DNA from: Bacteroidota bacterium
GTDB taxonomy: Bacteria; Bacteroidota; Ignavibacteria; Ignavibacteriales; Ignavibacteriaceae
Direction of reading: 5' to 3'
Length of the DNA stretch: 52,505 nucleotides
Assembly: GCA_021813585.1 (NCBI GenBank)
Contig: JAKAJV010000055.1
Coordinates: 1 to 52,505, forward strand
Under the pieces are notes generated by a model that had not been told where the DNA came from, ran no database searches, and was given only the letters and a program-made list of their open reading frames with translations. Shown in pieces: positions 4,226-52,505 of this stretch. Within the stretch, counting starts at the first letter, position 1; the number at the start of each line of letters is the position of its first letter. The position numbers and the translations under genes are program-made.

Positions 4226-5743
4226 CTAATATGCTTTAATACAGTATTCTATGCCTGCCTGCATCGTCTTCCTCATATTATCGCCCGCGAATTTATTGGC
4301 CTTAATGAATGAATAATTAAAATAAAATTTAAATGTTCCTGGTGTTAACGTTTTTAACTCTGCATTTAAAGTAATAGTGTGCTTATTATAATCTGTTTGA
4401 TAATACAGTAAGTCGTAAATTCTATTATTGATGAAATAATACGTCGGAACGTTATACGCCAGTTCCGATTCACCAACGGATTGATTGCTGAACCCGTACG
4501 CCAGCAGAGTTGATAGACTTTCGCTCCAATTAACTTCCAGTCCGAGCCTTGTACTCAGTCTTTGCAAATCCGAATTAGAAAATACCTGGCTGTAATAATC
4601 GTCGTCATTTCTTTTTATTAGCTCCGTACCTGCCTCTATTCCCAGCTTAATATTTCTATTCAGAGAATATTCGGCGCCGAGCAAAGTAGAATTTACGGAG
4701 TATTTGTTTTCCATGTAGACCGATTGGTACGAAGGATTGGAAGACCACATATTGTTAATCGAAAGGCTAAACGATATTCCGAGCGTTAAGTTTTCTATCG
4801 CGCTGCTTACTGCATATAGTCCTGTTCTAAAAATATCGTTCTTCCAAAATCCATCCGGCAAAGGATCAATCGCATCGTCCTTGGTCATGGTCTTCTGAAA
4901 GCCGCCGCCGGCAAATGCGGAGAAGGATACGATATCGTTTAGGCCGTAGGCAAAGGTAATATCTCCTAAGTAACCGTTGTTATATGCATTCCTAGTCTCG
5001 TCTTTTTTGGATATTGTGTAAGGGAAATCGAAGCCTCTGAATTTTATTATCGTCACCTCGCGGTTTATATCTTCTTCATCCTGGCTGAAGATAATATTTT
5101 CATAACGATCGAAAACATTAAGAACAATACCGGCGGATAATTTATCGCTCAGGTTATATCCGGCGCCTAATTTAAAATCTATCTCTCTGTGTTTTGAAGT
5201 CGGCTTCGGAGTTATTTCTTTCAGCCCTTCATCTACGTAATATTTAAGCGAAGCCCCGAGCTGAAGCCCTGCAGAAATCTTATTGCAGTATTCGGCGCTC
5301 ATTATAATCCCGTTGAATCTTGTGTTCCCTGTTGTAGTGTTCCCGATTAAAAACGGATTGCCGGATGCGTAGTCCTTTGTAAAAATCCATTGCCAGTTGT
5401 TGTACTCCGTCCTTTGGAATCCGAAGCTGCCTTTAAATATTTGCCGGTCACCTATGCTCTTCTTTCCGAACGCACCCAGTTGATAGCTATTTATCTGCCC
5501 TGGCTCTACAAACATTTTATAATCGCCGTTAGCTGCGCTGTAAAGAGAATGTATTGTTAAAACCTCGTCTTCCCTATCGAGGAATAAATATGCCGGATTG
5601 TTCCCGATATAATACGGATTTATTCTCACGGAATTCTTAAATAACAAACTGAACGGATATTCGTATTCGAAGGCCTGCTGAGGATAAACCGTAACAGGCG
5701 CAGTAAAGAACAAAACAGATAAAAGCAAAAAGATTTTTTTCAT
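4226..5743 (-). CDS. DUF6850-type outer-membrane beta-barrel protein
   Basis: This 505-aa protein has a signal peptide (MKKIFLLLSVLFFTAPVTVYPQ). It is dominated by alternating amphipathic beta strands rich in Tyr, Phe and Asn, and it ends in an aromatic residue (IKAY), as expected for a BAM-inserted outer-membrane barrel. The N-terminal motif RINPYYIGNNPAYL aligns with SFNPFYLGGNPSWM of the paralogue at 24681. From recall, DUF6850 proteins sit next to DUF4876 proteins and TonB receptors in Bacteroidota, and that is the arrangement here: the start lies 9 bp after the stop of the DUF4876 gene. The function of the family is unknown. A companion channel or assembly factor for the receptor is inference. 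The family name is from memory and less certain than the barrel prediction. Confidence 0.72.
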   Translation of the reverse strand: MKKIFLLLSVLFFTAPVTVYPQQAFEYEYPFSLLFKNSVRINPYYIGNNPAYLFLDREDEVLTIHSLYSAANGDYKMFVEPGQINSYQLGAFGKKSIGDRQIFKGSFGFQRTEYNNWQWIFTKDYASGNPFLIGNTTTGNTRFNGIIMSAEYCNKISAGLQLGASLKYYVDEGLKEITPKPTSKHREIDFKLGAGYNLSDKLSAGIVLNVFDRYENIIFSQDEEDINREVTIIKFRGFDFPYTISKKDETRNAYNNGYLGDITFAYGLNDIVSFSAFAGGGFQKTMTKDDAIDPLPDGFWKNDIFRTGLYAVSSAIENLTLGISFSLSINNMWSSNPSYQSVYMENKYSVNSTLLGAEYSLNRNIKLGIEAGTELIKRNDDDYYSQVFSNSDLQRLSTRLGLEVNWSESLSTLLAYGFSNQSVGESELAYNVPTYYFINNRIYDLLYYQTDYNKHTITLNAELKTLTPGTFKFYFNYSFIKANKFAGDNMRKTMQAGIEYCIKAY

Positions 5744-12379: not shown

Positions 12380-14323
12380 TTAAATATCCAGATCAAGCTC
12401 GCCGGCTTTCACTACCTTTCCGTTAGGCTTAATGTGGAAAGGATTAGCCACTTCCTTTGTTTGATTATCGCCTGTGAAGATAGTTAGCGTGGGCTTAACG
12501 AGAGCGGCTTTTACCTTCTCCGCATTCGTCTGTGCCGGATCGAAATAGATGAAGGCAGTAGGCACGTTTGTGAACCTTGTAGAGAACCTGATAATACCGT
12601 TATCAGCAGAAAGATGACTGGTAAGGTAGCTGAAATATCTTCTAAGCTGGGGCGAAGCCGCTTCCGGCATGGGGAAAACGAGTACGGAAAGATTTTCTTT
12701 TGAATATTTTTTATAATCGTTAAACACCCTGTCGTATATTCTGAATATTTTTTTCTTGTAATCGGCAGCCGAAATAAATCCCTTGTTTACTCCGTTGTTT
12801 TCTACTTTAAAATCCAATTCCAGCTTTTCAACAGTCTTTGCTTTTTTAGCCAGGACTTCTTCCTTTTCAATCTGCTTTTTGATTTTCTGCGGGCTTGTTA
12901 ATTCCGGATTATAGTAAACAGTCGTCAGCACCGGCTCGCCGTAGTGGGTTTCAAAACCGTAAACACCGTCATCCTCTCTTAAAGAATAAAAGAGATTGTT
13001 AAAGTCAATCAGATCGAACAATCCGTATATTCCCGCCTCCCAAACCGCAACCGAATCCACAGTGCCGGGTTTAATCCTTTTTATTTCCTGCTTTATTGGC
13101 GTGAATAGAGATTCCTTAACTTTCTTGCCGGAAATTACCGCCGGATCATAATAGATTTTTACTGTATGAGACTTTGCGTAAGTGTCCAGGCCGTAAATGC
13201 CGTCAATACTTACCAACGTATTTTTAAGCGACATTGAACTGCCGTAGCATTTTACGTTTTTCAACCCTGCTTGTTCATAAACCGCCAGCTTGTGCGAAGG
13301 ATCGGGATGGCCCCATTTCTCGGCAATCGTTGTAAACTCTATCTGGCTAGCAGCGCCAAGGCTCAACAAAACTAGCACAACCACCATAACCGGGGAAAGA
13401 TACTTTAGGTTTTTCTTTTTGCTTATTGTAAGAGTATTTCTCCTAGGGCACGAATAAACGCAATCGGTGCAGAGGTTGCAGTCTATATGATCCACTTTTG
13501 CGTACTGGGAGATCTTAATATTCTGGGGGCATTTGGTATCGCAGAAATTACAGTCGGTACAGTTAGCCTCGTTCCTTGTAATTTTCGGAACGGGCGATAA
13601 AAAGCTCTTCATAAATCCCAGTTCATTTATCATGCCTGCCAAAACAAGCCCGGCAATAAGCCAAACGTAGCTTAATCCGGCGCCTAGAACATTTGCCAGA
13701 ACAAATAAAATTATTACCGCACCTGCACCCACAACATTCAAAAAGATATTGCTTAAAGCACCCATCGGGCACAAATATTTGCACCAGAATAATTTGAAGA
13801 AGACCGCACCGAGGATTGTTATTATAAATGCCGGAATGGCAAAGTATAAAACAATATCGGTGTTATTAAATAAATTTGCCGAAGCAAAGTACGGATCGAA
13901 TTCTTTACAGAAGAGTTCGCTTGTAGTCATAGTTATATAAAGCACCGCAAACAGAAGTATGTACTTTAGCGCCCGCAGCGGACGATCAAGCTTTTGCGGA
14001 ATAGTTAATCTTACATGAAGCTTGTCGCCTATCTTCCCAAGCCACTCGCTTATCGAGCCGATGGGACAGACATAGCTGCAGAATAATTTACCTATTAATA
14101 AAACTCCGATTATCAAACCAATACCTATCATCAATTGAGTTTCACTCATATTGCACGACATGGTACCCTGGTTTAATTTACTTCCCAATGATGCCAAACC
14201 TCCGAAAGGACAGTAAGACTCAAAGTCGGAAATGTAGCTTGGATCGAATATAGGGCGTATTGCCACGTAGGCAATTAGACCCAGAAATAAAGACTGAAGT
14301 ACGAGACGAATTTTGTTTTTCAT
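12380..14323 (-). CDS. NapH/NosR-like membrane polyferredoxin with three degenerate HMA-like domains
   Basis: This 647-aa inner-membrane protein has about six hydrophobic segments. It carries two CxxxCPxG motifs (Cys82/86 and Cys181/185) as in NapH, NosR and CcoG. Two 4Fe-4S motifs follow (Cys255/258/261/265 and Cys282/285/288/292), then another membrane segment (~308-325). Known members pass electrons from the quinone pool or support metal-cofactor assembly. Unusually, the C-terminal half contains three modules (about 355-408, 424-487, 545-609) with the beta-alpha-beta-beta-alpha-beta rhythm of heavy-metal-associated domains, each with a VYYDP/VYYNP/FIYFDP strand and a following K-V helix. 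None keeps a CxxC pair; only Cys359 remains. It sits between T9SS protein genes. Confidence 0.8.
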   Translation of the reverse strand: MKNKIRLVLQSLFLGLIAYVAIRPIFDPSYISDFESYCPFGGLASLGSKLNQGTMSCNMSETQLMIGIGLIIGVLLIGKLFCSYVCPIGSISEWLGKIGDKLHVRLTIPQKLDRPLRALKYILLFAVLYITMTTSELFCKEFDPYFASANLFNNTDIVLYFAIPAFIITILGAVFFKLFWCKYLCPMGALSNIFLNVVGAGAVIILFVLANVLGAGLSYVWLIAGLVLAGMINELGFMKSFLSPVPKITRNEANCTDCNFCDTKCPQNIKISQYAKVDHIDCNLCTDCVYSCPRRNTLTISKKKNLKYLSPVMVVVLVLLSLGAASQIEFTTIAEKWGHPDPSHKLAVYEQAGLKNVKCYGSSMSLKNTLVSIDGIYGLDTYAKSHTVKIYYDPAVISGKKVKESLFTPIKQEIKRIKPGTVDSVAVWEAGIYGLFDLIDFNNLFYSLREDDGVYGFETHYGEPVLTTVYYNPELTSPQKIKKQIEKEEVLAKKAKTVEKLELDFKVENNGVNKGFISAADYKKKIFRIYDRVFNDYKKYSKENLSVLVFPMPEAASPQLRRYFSYLTSHLSADNGIIRFSTRFTNVPTAFIYFDPAQTNAEKVKAALVKPTLTIFTGDNQTKEVANPFHIKPNGKVVKAGELDLDI

Positions 14324-49287: not shown

Positions 49288-49360
49288 GCTGGCGTAGCTC
49301 AGCTGGTAGAGCAGCTGATTTGTAATCAGCCGGTCATTGGTTCGAATCCGATCGCCAGCT
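49288..49360 (+). tRNA. tRNA-Thr (anticodon TGT)
   Basis: This 73-nt cloverleaf has acceptor stem gctggcg (49288-49294) paired with cgccagc (49353-49359) and discriminator t. The D loop is agctggtaga, the anticodon arm gctga-tttgtaa-tcagc with anticodon TGT reads ACA/ACN threonine codons, and the T arm contains ttggttcgaatccga. CCA is not encoded. It marks the border between ordinary genes and the small-gene/structured-RNA region that follows, a frequent integration site type. Confidence 0.96.
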
Positions 49361-49365
49361 CTTGA

Positions 49366-49434: not shown

Positions 49435-49463
49435 GTGTGCACTGAGTGTGCAGTAAGTATGCA
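49435..49463. repeat. Three 7-bp direct repeats with 11-bp period
   Basis: gtgtgca (49435), gtgtgca (49446) and gtatgca (49457) recur exactly every 11 bp, about one helical turn. Iteron-like spacing suggests a protein-binding site, placed 75 bp after the tRNA. Confidence 0.5.
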
Positions 49464-49616
49464 CTTTTGCAACTGCTGCTTAATGCTACTGGATATAAAT
49501 TTAATGAATCCATCAGTAAGAAAGTTCAGGGAGAGCTTACCACTAAAACTTAAAAATGAATACATTTGTAATTGTGTTGCTTCCATTAGCTTTTGAACTT
49601 TTTTCATAGTTATAAC

Positions 49617-49829
49617 TTAAATATTTACTTTCTGATCTTCAACGATTTCAAGAATAATTTTGTTAGGGCTATATGTAACTTTAAATTCTTTACCTATTCT
49701 AAACCCGGATTTACCGAGTTTGTAATTTTTAATTTTGATTTGCGGGACCTTTGAATAGTCCCGCTTTGTAGGATGGCTGCTTTCGTAAACTTTCCCCGAT
49801 TGAATCGGGATTTCACTTCGTTCAACATT
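49617..49829 (-). pseudogene. SymE-like toxin reading frame without a start codon
   Basis: The minus-strand frame is open for 70 codons and encodes KVYESSHPTKRDYSKVPQIK followed by a segment with GFRIGKEFKVTYSPNKIIL. This matches the SymE family pattern (VPxIxLxGxWLxxxGFxIG..V.V..G.I.I), an AbrB-like fold RNA-degrading toxin normally held in check by an antisense RNA. No ATG, GTG or TTG occurs in the frame; a stop codon lies at 49830-49832. A perfect palindrome (cccgatt/aatcggg) with the lead-in ttgaacgaa occupies the place where the N-terminus should be. The gene thus looks decapitated by a palindromic repeat, or it is read by frameshift from an overlapping ATG (49827-49829). Family call is from motif only. 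Confidence 0.5.
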
Positions 49830-50022
49830 TTATACCGTCCGGATCTGATTCTTCAAACTTCTTTCCGCAAATTTTACACTGCTTAGTTTGAGCAATTACA
49901 ATATTATGAAGTGAGTTTACGGAATGAGTTTGAGAAATTATTTTAAGATTCTTTTTACAGTCGTGCGGCAGAATCCAGTTTTTTTCTTCGCACTGATCAA
50001 ATAATGTTTTAATTTTATCCAT
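49822..50022 (-). CDS. Small Cys-rich protein (66 aa), zinc-ribbon-like
   Basis: This 66-aa protein ends CKICGKKFEESDPDGIKC, giving a CxxC pair plus a C-terminal Cys; with Cys11 and Cys22 nearer the N-terminus (DQCEEKNWILPHDC) it could bind one or two zinc ions. It overlaps the upstream end of the SymE-like frame by 8 bp. It follows the 55-aa ORF after a strong hairpin (50043-50062). No family recognised; length and composition resemble small DNA- or RNA-binding proteins of mobile elements. Confidence 0.5.
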   Translation of the reverse strand: MDKIKTLFDQCEEKNWILPHDCKKNLKIISQTHSVNSLHNIVIAQTKQCKICGKKFEESDPDGIKC

Positions 50023-50042
50023 TTTATTATTCCGTTTTATAT

Positions 50043-50062
50043 GGGCGGCCTGACGGCCGCCC
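50043..50062 (-). other. GC-rich intercistronic hairpin
   Basis: gggcggcc and ggccgccc pair perfectly over 8 bp around tgac, between the stop of the 55-aa ORF (50068) and the start of the 66-aa gene (50022). No T-run follows, so a processing or attenuation hairpin is more likely than a terminator. Confidence 0.55.
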
Positions 50063-50067
50063 TTGAA

Positions 50068-50235
50068 TTATACCAAATCTGAAAAGTTGAACTGCCTAAG
50101 AAGAAAGTTTACATCTTCCCAGTTTTTTTGAATGCCGATTAAATGATGAAGCACTGCTTGTGCTAAAAGGAAATAACCTTTTTTAATAAGCTGCTTATGA
50201 ATAAGCATAAGCGCCATTTTTTGTTTGATGGCCAT
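50068..50235 (-). CDS. Small helical protein (55 aa), hypothetical
   Basis: A 55-residue frame starts at ATG 50235 with gagg six bases upstream. It is basic at the N-terminus (MAIKQKMALMLIHKQLIKKG) and then amphipathic helical (FLLAQAVLHHLIGIQKNWED, VNFLLRQFN). The start faces the candidate structured RNA across a divergent intergenic stretch of about 50 bp. Its position next to the RNA makes a protein partner conceivable. No family recognised. Confidence 0.5.
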   Translation of the reverse strand: MAIKQKMALMLIHKQLIKKGYFLLAQAVLHHLIGIQKNWEDVNFLLRQFNFSDLV

Positions 50236-50310
50236 GTCAACCTCGCTTTTTAAGTTAGTGTTTAGTTAAGCTTTGCCTGCCGCAGTGGGCGCACTGCTAC
50301 TTGCGCAAAA

Positions 50311-50571
50311 AAATATTTTGCCCGCTTAATTACTTTTCAGCAAAAGGTGGAACAGTTGAGATGATAAGGAAAGGATAACATGAAAATGTAAGGCAAGGGC
50401 AAAGCTGCGTAAAGAAAAAGGGTGAAAGTTTTTGCCGAAGACTATTAAGCGAGATAAAATGTTTGGTAAAAACTTTTGTCCCTTTTTTAGCAGCTTTGTT
50501 TCATATACCCTTGCCCGATTTACTACAAGGAAAAGTTAAGACTAAGCTTGTTTCCAGCGGGCAAAATATTT
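50311..50571 (+). other. 261-nt hairpin of six nested helices
   Basis: Pairs, from outside in: 50311-50326 with 50556-50571 (16 bp perfect, aaatattttgcccgct); 50332-50338 with 50530-50536 (acttttc); 50392-50399 with 50508-50515 (ggcaaggg); 50401-50408 with 50490-50497 (aaagctgc); 50415-50422 with 50480-50487 (aaaaaggg); 50425-50436 with 50465-50476 (12 bp, one G-U). The 28-nt apical loop is 50437-50464. Confidence 0.75.
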
Positions 50572-50656
50572 ACTAACAGTTGCGACGTCAGAAGCAACAA
50601 TCATTATTGGATATATATTTGGATAGAAATGTAAAGGTAAGGTAGTTAATGAGTCA

Positions 50657-51160
50657 GCAGTTATTGACCGAAGGGAAATAGCTGCATTAAAATGACGCTA
50701 AGGCTAAGATATATGAAAGCCTTATTGAGCGAATGGAGTGCTTGACGGCGATAGCCGTCAAGTAAACGGAATGAGCGAAAATATGGCGGAGGAATGATAG
50801 AATATAAAATACTAAGTGATTACTGCTGGTAGGTGTTTACTGAAAGGAAACAGCTACACTAAAAAGACGCTAAGGTTAAGATATATGAAAGCCTTTATGA
50901 CTGAATGAAGTACTTTGACGGCGGTAGCCGGCAAAGAAAGCGGAATGAAGGAATAATGGCGGAGGTTAGACAGAACTATAAATATTAGGTGATGAATTAT
51001 GCTGTTATTGATCCCGAATGCTTTCGGGAGAAATAGCTGCATTCAAAGGACGCAAATGTTGAGATTTATGAGAGCCTTATTGAACGAATGAAGTGTTTGA
51101 CGGCGAAGCCGTCAAATAAACGAAGAGAAACACTTATTGGTATTGAGAAAAAGAAACGGA
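50657..51160 (+). repeat. Three tandem structured ~170-nt repeat units
   Basis: Units begin near 50661, 50836 and 51005 (periods 175 and 169). Each has a closing helix pairing a gttatt-like arm with aatagct (clear in units 1 and 3), then gctgcatt or gctacact, gacgc, an aaggct-agcctt hairpin (units 1 and 2), a gaatgaagt-like box, and a hairpin around gacggc: cttgacggc-gata-gccgtcaag (50741-50762), ctttgacggc-ggta-gccggcaaag (50913-50936, one mismatch), tttgacggc-gaa-gccgtcaaa (51096-51116). Units 1 and 2 also share atggcggagg. Confidence 0.8.
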
Positions 51161-51167
51161 GTAATAA

Positions 51168-51195
51168 AAAAGCTTCCTCGAAAGAGGAAGCTTTT
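51168..51195. terminator. Bidirectional terminator
   Basis: aaaagcttcctc and gaggaagctttt pair over 12 bp around gaaa. On the minus strand it is followed by a T run and lies 25 bp after the DUF6266-like stop; on the plus strand it closes the candidate RNA. Confidence 0.85.
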
Positions 51196-51220
51196 AAGAG
51201 GAAGGAAATAATAACAGAGC

Positions 51221-51907
51221 TTATGCGCTGGCTTTTGGTGAAGTAGCGGAATACTGAACTACTTTACCATCAGCGGTTTTGGAAGCAACACTGAGAAGCA
51301 AAATATTCTTGGTATACTTTGCAGCGATAACCTTATGCTTAGCATCGAAGTCGATCTGGAGATCGTATGCCTGAGTGAAATCGAAGTTGGCGACTTCTTT
51401 GTTAAGTGAAATTAATTGGTAAGGCTCATCGTCCGGGTTAACGGGATCTGTGAAGCATACTATAGCATTAGCAGATAAGCTGACTTCCTCTGCAGAGAAT
51501 ACAGATTCAGTATTCAAGGCAAGAAGTGAAGCGGTGATCTTATCTGCAGCGACTGCAGCAACATCAACCGGGAGACCGAAACCACCAGGGGTGATTATAT
51601 TGTCTACAGTTGGCTTATCAGTACCAGAGTACTGAAAGTTGCTTTTGAAGATTGTATTGTAAACAGACATTCCGGATTCTTTAACTGATTTCCAGATTCC
51701 GGCAAGAGTTGTTAGAGCTAAGACTGCCTGAGCAAGAGCAACGGTGACTGAGAACTTCTGTCTAACTTGAGTAACTGCCGGATCGTAGTTAACGTTAAAG
51801 CTAGAAGGGCGAGCTGCTAAGATGGTTTTACCATCTACGGTACGAGCGGATAGGTTGCCAAGTCTACCGCGCATATTACCGATTACGTTTCCATTTAGGA
51901 TTGCCAT
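51221..51907 (-). CDS. DUF6266-like protein
   Basis: This 228-aa protein starts at MAILNGNVIGNMRGRLGNLS; a longer frame to 51973 adds 22 residues without a ribosome site, while aaaggtg precedes 51907. The opening G-x-x-G-x-x-GN-x-x-A-R with a following strand (KTILAARPSS) and YDPAVTQVRQKFSVTVALAQ recalls DUF6266 proteins of Bacteroidota (start of the type MGxI..GILGGFSGKVGxVVG). The C-terminal half is beta-rich (FTQAYDLQIDFDAKHKVIAA). Function of the family is unknown. No signal peptide, so cytoplasmic or part of a particle. Three 11-bp-spaced repeats lie ~150 bp upstream. Confidence 0.6.
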   Translation of the reverse strand: MAILNGNVIGNMRGRLGNLSARTVDGKTILAARPSSFNVNYDPAVTQVRQKFSVTVALAQAVLALTTLAGIWKSVKESGMSVYNTIFKSNFQYSGTDKPTVDNIITPGGFGLPVDVAAVAADKITASLLALNTESVFSAEEVSLSANAIVCFTDPVNPDDEPYQLISLNKEVANFDFTQAYDLQIDFDAKHKVIAAKYTKNILLLSVASKTADGKVVQYSATSPKASA

Positions 51908-52278
51908 AATGACACCTTTAAGTTTTGTGAAAGAATACGGTGCAATAATATTTGGTATTCCGAAGGAATTCACTGTAAAGATGGGAAAGCGTTTGTATTG
52001 GCGAATTACTATTGTTGATTTATAAAATCTAAGTACTTAAAGGAAGCCGGTTTGAGGCTTGGCAGAGGCTTGTTAGAGGCTTGTTAGGAAGTAAGTAGTT
52101 TTGTGGTTTGCTGTGTGTGGTTGAAAGGTGGATGAATAAGTAAAATGACAGCAGCAAATAGACATTGATGAGATAAGAGTTCAAAAAAAAAATTCACCGG
52201 TACATTTGTAGCATATCTATAATATTTCTCAAAAAATTCTTTTATGATAACTTGGTTGGCGTATAAAAAATAATATAG
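51908..52278. other. 371-bp intergenic gap upstream of the DUF6266-like gene
   Basis: The gap holds the minus-strand promoter region of the DUF6266-like gene and the three direct repeats at 52054-52083. Near 52265-52288 an A/T-only inverted repeat (aaaaaataa/ttatttttt) abuts the HTH gene stop and may end its transcript. The rest is A-rich with no frame I can support. Confidence 0.5.
52054..52083. repeat. Three 8-bp direct repeats with 11-bp period
   Basis: gaggcttg occurs at 52054, 52065 and 52076, spaced exactly 11 bp. The position, about 150 bp upstream of the DUF6266-like start, fits a regulator operator; the period equals that of the unrelated repeats at 49435. Confidence 0.6.
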
Positions 52279-52505
52279 TTATTTTTTTTCACCGTCGATA
52301 TTTTGTTTGCTGATATCTTCTGCTTCTTTTATAATGGGATAAAATTTTTCATCGAAATGCCGGTTAAACCAAATATCGATAACAGATTTTTTAAAGCGCC
52401 ACTCCTTCCCGATTTTTGCGGCAGGAATTTTCTTTTCTTGAGCCCAGGTGTAAATAGTTTGAGGCTTTACTTTAAGATATTCAGCAACTTCTTCAAGCGT
52501 CATAA
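52279..52505 (-). CDS. Excisionase-type (MerR-like) helix-turn-helix protein, 5' end possibly outside
   Basis: The visible 74 residues open MTLEEVAEYLKVKPQTIYTW, with AAKIGKEWRFKKSVIDIW after it: the winged HTH of the excisionase/helix_turn_helix-17 family. The ATG at 52503 is two bases from the window edge, so the true start may lie upstream. The C-terminal tail (FYPIIKEAEDISKQNIDGEKK) is charged and helical. Such proteins act as recombination directionality factors or as small regulators; together with the tRNA-proximal position this hints at an integrated element, but no integrase is in view. Confidence 0.8.
   Translation of the reverse strand, partial: MTLEEVAEYLKVKPQTIYTWAQEKKIPAAKIGKEWRFKKSVIDIWFNRHFDEKFYPIIKEAEDISKQNIDGEKK

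Follow-up and report, generated by a model that had tools for sequence, protein, structure and literature searches.

Very large bacterial RNAs whose function is unknown are few. GOLLD RNAs, many of which exceed 800 nt, show an elaborate fold whose two halves are unequally conserved; they are borne by prophages and phages, often near tRNA islands, and their function is listed as unknown (PMC12286853). ROOL, treated in the same source, is likewise an ornate RNA (659 nt in one solved case) located near tRNA islands on phage or prophage DNA, and no protein partner is identified for it there; GOLLD, ROOL and OLE are reported to have recently been shown to form RNA-only complexes (PMC12286853). In Vibrio, both the phage ICP1 and the satellite PLE produce abundant long noncoding RNAs, and the PLE transcript is placed between inverted repeats and shows antisense homology to PLE leaders (PMC7567579).

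In this study, we analysed a stretch of 52,505 nt, hereafter called the window, and an undescribed large structured RNA at 50283-51195 on the plus strand is strongly supported by comparison with its homologues. The region lies approximately 0.9 kb downstream of a tRNA-Thr gene, on the strand of the tRNA, with a 55-aa ORF diverging from it on one side and a convergent gene on the other (Table 1). An earlier note on this DNA had proposed an undescribed RNA adjacent to a tRNA within an accessory region, and the proposal held: no Rfam family is reached at gathering scores and the homologues covary strongly. The borders given there were confirmed as well (divergent ORF at 50068-50235 on the minus strand, convergent gene ending at 51221), and the inverted and direct repeats behind the claimed long nested hairpin, three tandem units and terminator were located as described.

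Table 1. Features of the RNA locus and its surroundings (positions in the window).
Feature	Position	Strand	Evidence or remark
tRNA-Thr(TGT)	49288..49361	+	ARAGORN, Rfam; presumed attachment-site side of the element
Left-end segment, recurring at tRNA-Lys, tRNA-Gln and tRNA-Met genes within the genus	49456..49620	.	blast, tRNA calls, ORF cluster c6
66-aa cysteine-bearing small protein (c3), recurrent neighbour	49822..50022	-	cluster c3 in 14/33 loci
55-aa divergent ORF	50068..50235	-	resembles cluster c10 by eye
Short 5' hairpin directly ahead of P1	50283..50296	+	read from sequence
P1 5' strand, 5' domain	50311..50326	+	100% complementary to 50556-50571; covaries in relatives
P2 5' strand GGCAAGGG	50392..50399	+	pairs with 50508-50515; 3/8 pairs changed on both sides in relatives
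Long variable internal hairpin, 5' domain	50400..50498	+	inverted repeats I1, I8
P2 3' strand	50508..50515	+	pairing with 50392-50399, counted in relatives
P1 3' strand	50556..50571	+	complementarity and covariation
Repeat unit 1 (helix a and helix b with tandem G.A)	50654..50814	+	R1 165.1 bits; row of A1
Repeat unit 2	50826..50987	+	R1 144.9 bits; row of A1
Repeat unit 3, diverged 3' part	50998..51169	+	R1 92 bits; row of A1
Terminator hairpin	51168..51195	+	12-bp perfect arms; possibly common to the convergent gene
DUF6266-like gene (c0), convergent partner	51221..51910	-	sequence comparison; model pLDDT 86
HTH_17 74-aa protein, end of the window	52279..52503	-	PF12728 3.8e-17

In the 5' domain, the perfect 16-bp pairing of P1 (50311-50326 with 50556-50571) surrounds a long hairpin formed by 50415-50439 and 50462-50486. 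This internal hairpin is swapped for other hairpins in relatives, and a GGGC-type hairpin ahead of P1 is visible in several of them on inspection. Further downstream, three 85-nt copies stand in tandem, starting at 50659, 50831 and 51014.

Based on a DNA search, the window's own genome contains two further copies (contigs C4 and C135). Among 97 genomes, the window's own included, small-E matches were obtained in the same genus, family and order; all 97 give some match at E<=1, most of which are surely due to chance. We fetched 40 homologous loci. RNAs of the family measure about 0.5-1.3 kb and are modular: after a 5' domain come one, two or three tandem units and then a terminator, which faces the DUF6266-like gene. 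The 5' domain is of type d1 or d2 and is followed by either u units or a d3 module, and the combinations d1-u, d2-u and d1-d3 occur. The number of u units varies between one (L028, L122), two (L133, L154) and three (the window, L131), and some loci bear an extra fragment. In one locus (L058), about 0.5 kb between the 5' domain and the units holds a 97-aa ORF with hydrophobic stretches on the RNA strand (5346-5639, minus).

The distribution of the family was assessed separately for its two parts. The unit model matched 17 of 164 genomes of the window's order and 6 of 395 genomes drawn from the phylum, all six again belonging to this order and including the window's own, whereas the 5' model matched 26/164 order genomes, two or three of them weakly. 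Counted from both lists, 30/164 order genomes match one or both models, and across the genomes sampled the RNA is confined to the window's order. Blastn against phage and plasmid records returned no match to the RNA. An 18-nt core motif occurred in seven viral contigs, which we attribute to chance since R1 and R2 gave no match to any of them at E<=0.1, and a longer core pattern gave nothing in the viral contigs. One contig of the viral collection that was found by protein (L170) has the RNA; it is probably the same element as L159, given that the R1 score and the match positions relative to the gene are equal.

In order to evaluate conservation of the fold, the repeat units were aligned. The fetched loci and the window gave 40 unit hits, of which the 34 full ones form alignment A1 and six partial ones were excluded. 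On A1, RNAalifold recovers helix a only (7/10 pairs changed on both sides), and two gap-trimmed versions add hardly anything to it; helix b was derived from averaged pair probabilities and then counted on the same rows. Helices a and b together comprise 31 pairs with standard pairing in 88.9% of 982 cells, and 23 of these pairs are changed on both sides. The covariation score amounts to 0.391, compared to 0.178 after shuffling (0/500, a count that is not a probability because the sequences are related) and 0.026-0.128 after sliding, the latter being the fairer control for A1 though the structure was derived from these very rows. In helix b, short stretches of Watson-Crick pairing and tandem G.A take turns: at the two tandem positions, G-A is found in 28 and 30 and A-G in 28 and 34 of the 34 rows. 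The conserved mismatches thus stand between covarying 2-bp steps, which switch between rows (e.g. G-C in 12, C-G in 10).

The 5' domain was treated in the same manner in alignment A5, which contains 30 of 31 sequences (29 loci hits, the window and L028); L141, a near copy of L143, was excluded, and L167, L170 and partial hits had been left aside beforehand. Here, 7 of the 21 P1 and P2 pairs are changed on both sides, compared to 0.9 after shuffling. Covariation counts refer to u units and P1/P2, while d2 and d3 modules were assigned by profile only. Covariation among homologues, suggested in the earlier note as a check, is thus found in units and 5' domain alike. Among the helices named in that note, gttatt/aatagc is real and covaries in A1, and the G.T pairing at 50434/50467 is as described; in unit 2, aaggtt/agcctt is not the conserved stem, the pairing shared by homologues being GCCTTAT with ATA.GGC at the unit end.

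The window RNA folds at -280.4 kcal/mol on the plus strand (z -7.9) and at -210.1 kcal/mol on the minus strand (z -6.5, 20 shuffles each). Folding energy was dropped as evidence of the strand, because the plus strand is more stable not only in 34/34 RNA regions but also in 13/14 control stretches inside the neighbouring protein gene, which share the same bias. Over all pairs of the repeat units in A1, G-U or U-G occupies 58 cells and A-C or C-A 23, an excess that modestly favours an RNA read from the plus strand. In the 5' domain the two are about equal (6 versus 7), and this part therefore gives no strand information. Sigma motifs are not enriched upstream of the RNA (TAnnTTTG in 2/35, 3.3 expected by chance).

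A coding function of the region found no support, in agreement with the earlier view that it holds no credible protein. Within the window RNA, ORFs reach at most 62 aa (50854-51042, minus strand), and this longest one forms a single-member cluster; no ORF cluster of at least 60 aa within the RNA occurs in more than 5/31 loci. The largest cluster, c12, is present in 5/31 loci on the minus strand (65-199 aa) and absent from the window; c13 and c25 follow with 4/31 and 3/31. These clusters lie mostly antisense to the units and are read as probable by-products.

A cmscan against all 4227 families of Rfam 15 gave no match at gathering scores for 50283-51195 (plus strand), and 16 homologous loci gave none except tRNAs. 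The comparison with GOLLD, ROOL, OLE, HEARO and raiA advocated in the earlier note accordingly returned tRNAs only at gathering. GOLLD and ROOL models are unmatched at E<=10 in window positions 50000-51400 and at E<=1 in six homologous loci, and the models of OLE, HEARO and raiA are unmatched in the window at gathering or at E<=10 (50000-51400). The E<=10 search of this region lists scattered sub-threshold matches only; in the six loci, tRNAs, antisense-tRNA matches and scattered weak matches appear at E<=1. The model BTnc231 touches the terminator region (21.1 bits in the window and 26 bits in L122, with a gathering score of 80.4), which we take to be the terminator hairpin. The literature search found no paper on this RNA and no mention of DUF6266, nor of Ignavibacteri together with noncoding RNA. 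As far as Rfam 15 and the searched literature tell, the family is new. Of the parallel with GOLLD and ROOL drawn in the earlier note, the resemblance in length, tRNA neighbourhood and mobile setting is supported, while membership in these families is not supported, no model matching.

The c0 gene is convergent with the RNA in 28 of the 33 loci compared, window included; in three of the five loci without c0 (L034, L041, L046), the RNA reaches the contig end. The gap to c0 is 45-157 nt after u units, and 356-550 nt from the 5' domain where a d3 module fills it; in L031, L045 and L051, the RNA and the gene are separated by 1.2-2.5 kb with another ORF between them. In a protein-led search, 48 genome loci and one viral contig were identified, recorded as Ignavibacteria, Melioribacter, Stygiobacter and similar MAGs, in many cases simply as Bacteroidetes bacterium, with one Prevotella copy (L169) at 24% identity; for the gene ends at these loci, the tblastn boundaries were prolonged manually as far as the stop codon. 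The RNA is present at 41/49 of them, a share biased to the near clade, since the query alignment was built from RNA-bearing loci. Of the eight loci lacking it, two have 67 nt or less downstream and one has 542 nt (L164); the other five (L132, L150, L162, L165, L169) have 5 kb, and no RNA was found in the 2.6 kb searched. Twenty other DUF6266-like copies, most of them more distant, showed neither an RNA module (0/20) nor a tRNA (0/20) within 3.4-4.4 kb. Across the order, the protein family is found in 54/164 genomes and is missing from three genomes with the RNA (G003, G022, G113).

In a quickly built protein tree, a single change separates the 3' module types u and d3 when rows with neither are left out, and the 5' module type changes three times; with "neither" as a third state, six changes are counted compared to 18.5 after shuffling. 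Both 3' types exist within one genome in FK_Sedi_B_Bin.66, FK3.bin26 and WY4.bin45. On the sequences compared, the 3' module type co-segregates with the protein clade, which is partly expected from physical linkage. These protein comparisons used alignment A4 (40/49 loci and the window, excluding L124, L130, L143, L157 with a stop codon, L160, L166, L167, L169 and L170) and A2 (the window together with 24 ORFs whose start is clear).

The earlier assignment of this gene as DUF6266-like is correct in the sense of a remote relationship. The window protein has no Pfam match at E<=10, and when 25 members were searched for DUF6266 (PF19781), a single one scored, at E 0.049. Two divergent members reach 13.0 and 13.8 bits (E 0.042 and 0.074), so that the Pfam gathering cut-off of 23.4 is attained neither by them nor by the 25, while the Prevotella relative is a clear DUF6266 protein (2.2e-14). 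Judged by these scores, the linked protein is a remote DUF6266 relative only. In its predicted model (pLDDT 86), the middle is helical and the C-terminal half resembles FN3/Ig. Model confidence is low over the first 40 residues, where many of the invariant positions are found, which would fit a putative binding surface. The best match of the fold search (Z 7.6) is to FN3 domains, and matches are FN3/Ig-like in the C-terminal half only; the best Foldseek hits, beta-glucosidases (E 3.4e-4, TM 0.21), are uninformative for function. No RNA-binding fold is among the matches listed, which excludes nothing.

Other structured gaps were noticed beside genes of this family. In L132, a different ornate gap 0.7 kb downstream of the DUF6266-like gene holds nested hairpins inside a very long, almost perfect pairing and may represent a third type of RNA occupying this slot. 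Downstream of two distant DUF6266-like genes, 800 nt in L171 (-301.7 kcal/mol) and 500 nt in L175 (-159.1 kcal/mol) contain long palindromes, and no tRNA is found within the 5 kb examined.

A tRNA was detected within 2 kb in 15 of the 28 RNA loci that extend at least 1.5 kb beyond the RNA 5' end, in every case on the RNA strand and never opposite, at a distance of 297-1024 nt. These tRNAs are of many kinds. An integrase occurs in 6/28 testable loci, and an integrase or a tRNA in 21/28; near copies (L141/L143, L154/L167, L159/L170) are included in these counts. The left-end segment next to the tRNA, or part of it (query 1165-1329), has blast matches in G001, G006, G008, G009, G011 and G012. Among the small neighbours, the 66-aa protein has weak zinc-finger matches, and the 55-aa ORF falls below the length limit of ORF clustering. 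The recurrent gene order is tRNA, small ORFs, RNA, DUF6266-like gene, c1 (a small conserved protein with no Pfam match) and an SNase homologue, followed in some loci by Peptidase_M15_3 and GTA_holin_3TM, then cargo and finally HTH_17, tyrosine integrase and primase; every part is present in few loci.

In L112, PF00589 (1.8e-35), PF12728 (6.2e-10), Prim-Pol (3.9e-9) and PriCT_2 (5.1e-11) were identified, and blast-related genes stand in the same order in L105 and L113. The satellite-type set of tyrosine integrase, excisionase-type HTH and primase is thus present in relatives, and by analogy the window copy may possess it too, the window stopping before such genes. L107 carries a Toprim-DUF5906 primase some 2.5 kb beyond its SNase homologue, and cellular-type genes follow. 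A search for a second copy of the tRNA end in 14 loci over 3-20 kb (exact 14-nt suffix, or 24 nt with at most five mismatches) revealed no attR. Comparing left and right ends in six loci gave 11-14-nt words in L102, L110 and L113 and none in the other three; one 13-nt word in L113 is the 5' half of a tRNA. With no attR found, the description of the element as probably integrative is based on gene content, on the variety of tRNA sites and on the common left end. L113 has a tRNA-Arg copy with a disrupted 3' half at its left end (~960-1040) and an intact tRNA-Arg at 14067-14141, about 0.6 kb after the primase-like gene; this pair may be informative on site usage by the element.

Regarding cargo, 14 of 18 hand-picked large proteins matched PADLOC models at E<=1e-5 and four matched none; the matches include type I, IIG and III restriction, a Gabija-like helicase, E1-E2/JAB and QatC, among others. 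Since the right end is unproven, some of these defence genes may lie outside the element. In L102-L113, varied restriction and other defence genes stand behind one recurrent left end. Peptidase_M15_3 and a small conserved protein occur together in L044, L045 and L047-L051, with GTA_holin_3TM in 5/7 (c8, c9, c19); the cluster appears to be a lysis-like cassette on elements in which no capsid gene was seen. No capsid or terminase was found among 28 element proteins put to Pfam.

Judged by sequence comparison, the family is characterized by a conserved P1/P2 domain, one to three covarying tandem-G.A units and a strong protein linkage. That it represents a previously uncatalogued family of large structured noncoding RNAs we regard as very likely, and it is probable that this family resides on tRNA-linked elements and is inherited with the DUF6266-like gene, with a putative role as a scaffold. 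It would be carried at the tRNA-proximal end of tRNA-linked, probably integrative elements of Ignavibacteria-type bacteria and presumably be transcribed from the plus strand as a stand-alone RNA. A structural RNA is suggested by the conserved repeated fold, the lack of a conserved reading frame, the variable unit number and the one linked protein. The modules could build a rigid repeated scaffold, which may assemble with itself in the manner of GOLLD and ROOL or may present copies of the DUF6266-like protein. It might act while the element replicates or is mobilised, or when phages attack. This mechanism is put forward tentatively. A more far-reaching version, which we find doubtful though conceivable, is an additional, self-assembling class of ornate RNA separate from GOLLD and ROOL, in which the tandem-G.A unit is repeated variably on an exchangeable 5' domain and, with its own DUF6266-like protein, would form a large RNA or RNA-protein particle for satellite-type replication or transfer of defence islands.

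Several other explanations have to be weighed against this. Type III antitoxin RNA units are pseudoknots of about 36 nt. Tandem RNA units adjoining one conserved protein, on elements carrying restriction and other defence genes, could indicate that the units titrate or inhibit the DUF6266-like protein, in the way these antitoxin RNAs act on endoribonucleases; the units of about 160 nt and a gene that is convergent instead of downstream of the RNA make such a toxin-antitoxin or anti-phage system unlikely, and no ToxN, Fic or nuclease is among the 50 matches listed by each fold search, which excludes nothing. The structure might also have been selected as DNA, with single-stranded hairpins of an origin or strand-transfer site being bound by the primase or other element proteins. 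Tandem G.A pairs form in DNA too, origins are typically repeat arrays at element ends, and relatives of the element own primases (Prim-Pol/PriCT_2, Toprim-DUF5906). However, neither a DNA-only structure nor a minus-strand one predicts the preponderance of G-U over A-C in the unit pairs, the 3' end carries a terminator-like hairpin, and length and complexity are, in our judgement, far above those of known origins; we consider this reading quite improbable.

Regulation of the convergent gene or of the small divergent ORFs, by a 3' antisense RNA, an attenuator or a leader, would be in line with the strong linkage of RNA and gene and with the window terminator, which ends 26 nt before the DUF6266-like stop. 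The window RNA overlaps neither gene, however, so that no antisense pairing arises unless transcription runs on; moreover, 0.5-1.3 kb of conserved modular structure exceeds, in our judgement, what an attenuator needs, and the RNA persists while the adjoining small ORFs vary among loci. A regulatory function is therefore rated as very unlikely. Finally, the window RNA could be a very diverged GOLLD or ROOL member, considering the shared size class, tRNA neighbourhood and mobile setting (PMC12286853, PMC7567579). With both models unlisted in the searches given above and an architecture that differs in combining a 5' domain with tandem equivalent units, we hold this to be extremely improbable.

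The preferred reading, a new RNA family on tRNA-linked elements, ties an ornate RNA to islands with restriction and other defence genes. Its modular, countable architecture and single linked protein offer a handle that GOLLD, ROOL and OLE lack, and because there is natural variation in unit number, in the 5' module and in the protein clade, the role of ornate RNAs on mobile elements becomes testable.

Compared to ToxI, the RNA of type III toxin-antitoxin systems, tandem structured units adjoining one protein gene are a common trait, while unit size, gene order and protein are unlike. To our knowledge, ROOL has no tandem equivalent units. The long noncoding RNAs of PLE and ICP1 are alike in being encoded on a satellite or phage, and the PLE transcript is distinguished by its inverted-repeat flanks and antisense homology to leaders (PMC7567579). 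With ROOL, the new RNA shares ornateness, tRNA neighbourhood and location on mobile DNA; it differs in lacking an Rfam match and in having a linked protein, whereas none is identified for ROOL (PMC12286853). Likewise, size class, tRNA neighbourhood and mobile-element setting agree with GOLLD as portrayed in that source. In contrast to GOLLD, the family described here has no Rfam match and no capsid or terminase match among the proteins put to Pfam, it sits at a single tRNA or a pair as presumed attachment site instead of a tRNA island, and it combines one to three tandem equivalent units with one linked protein family.
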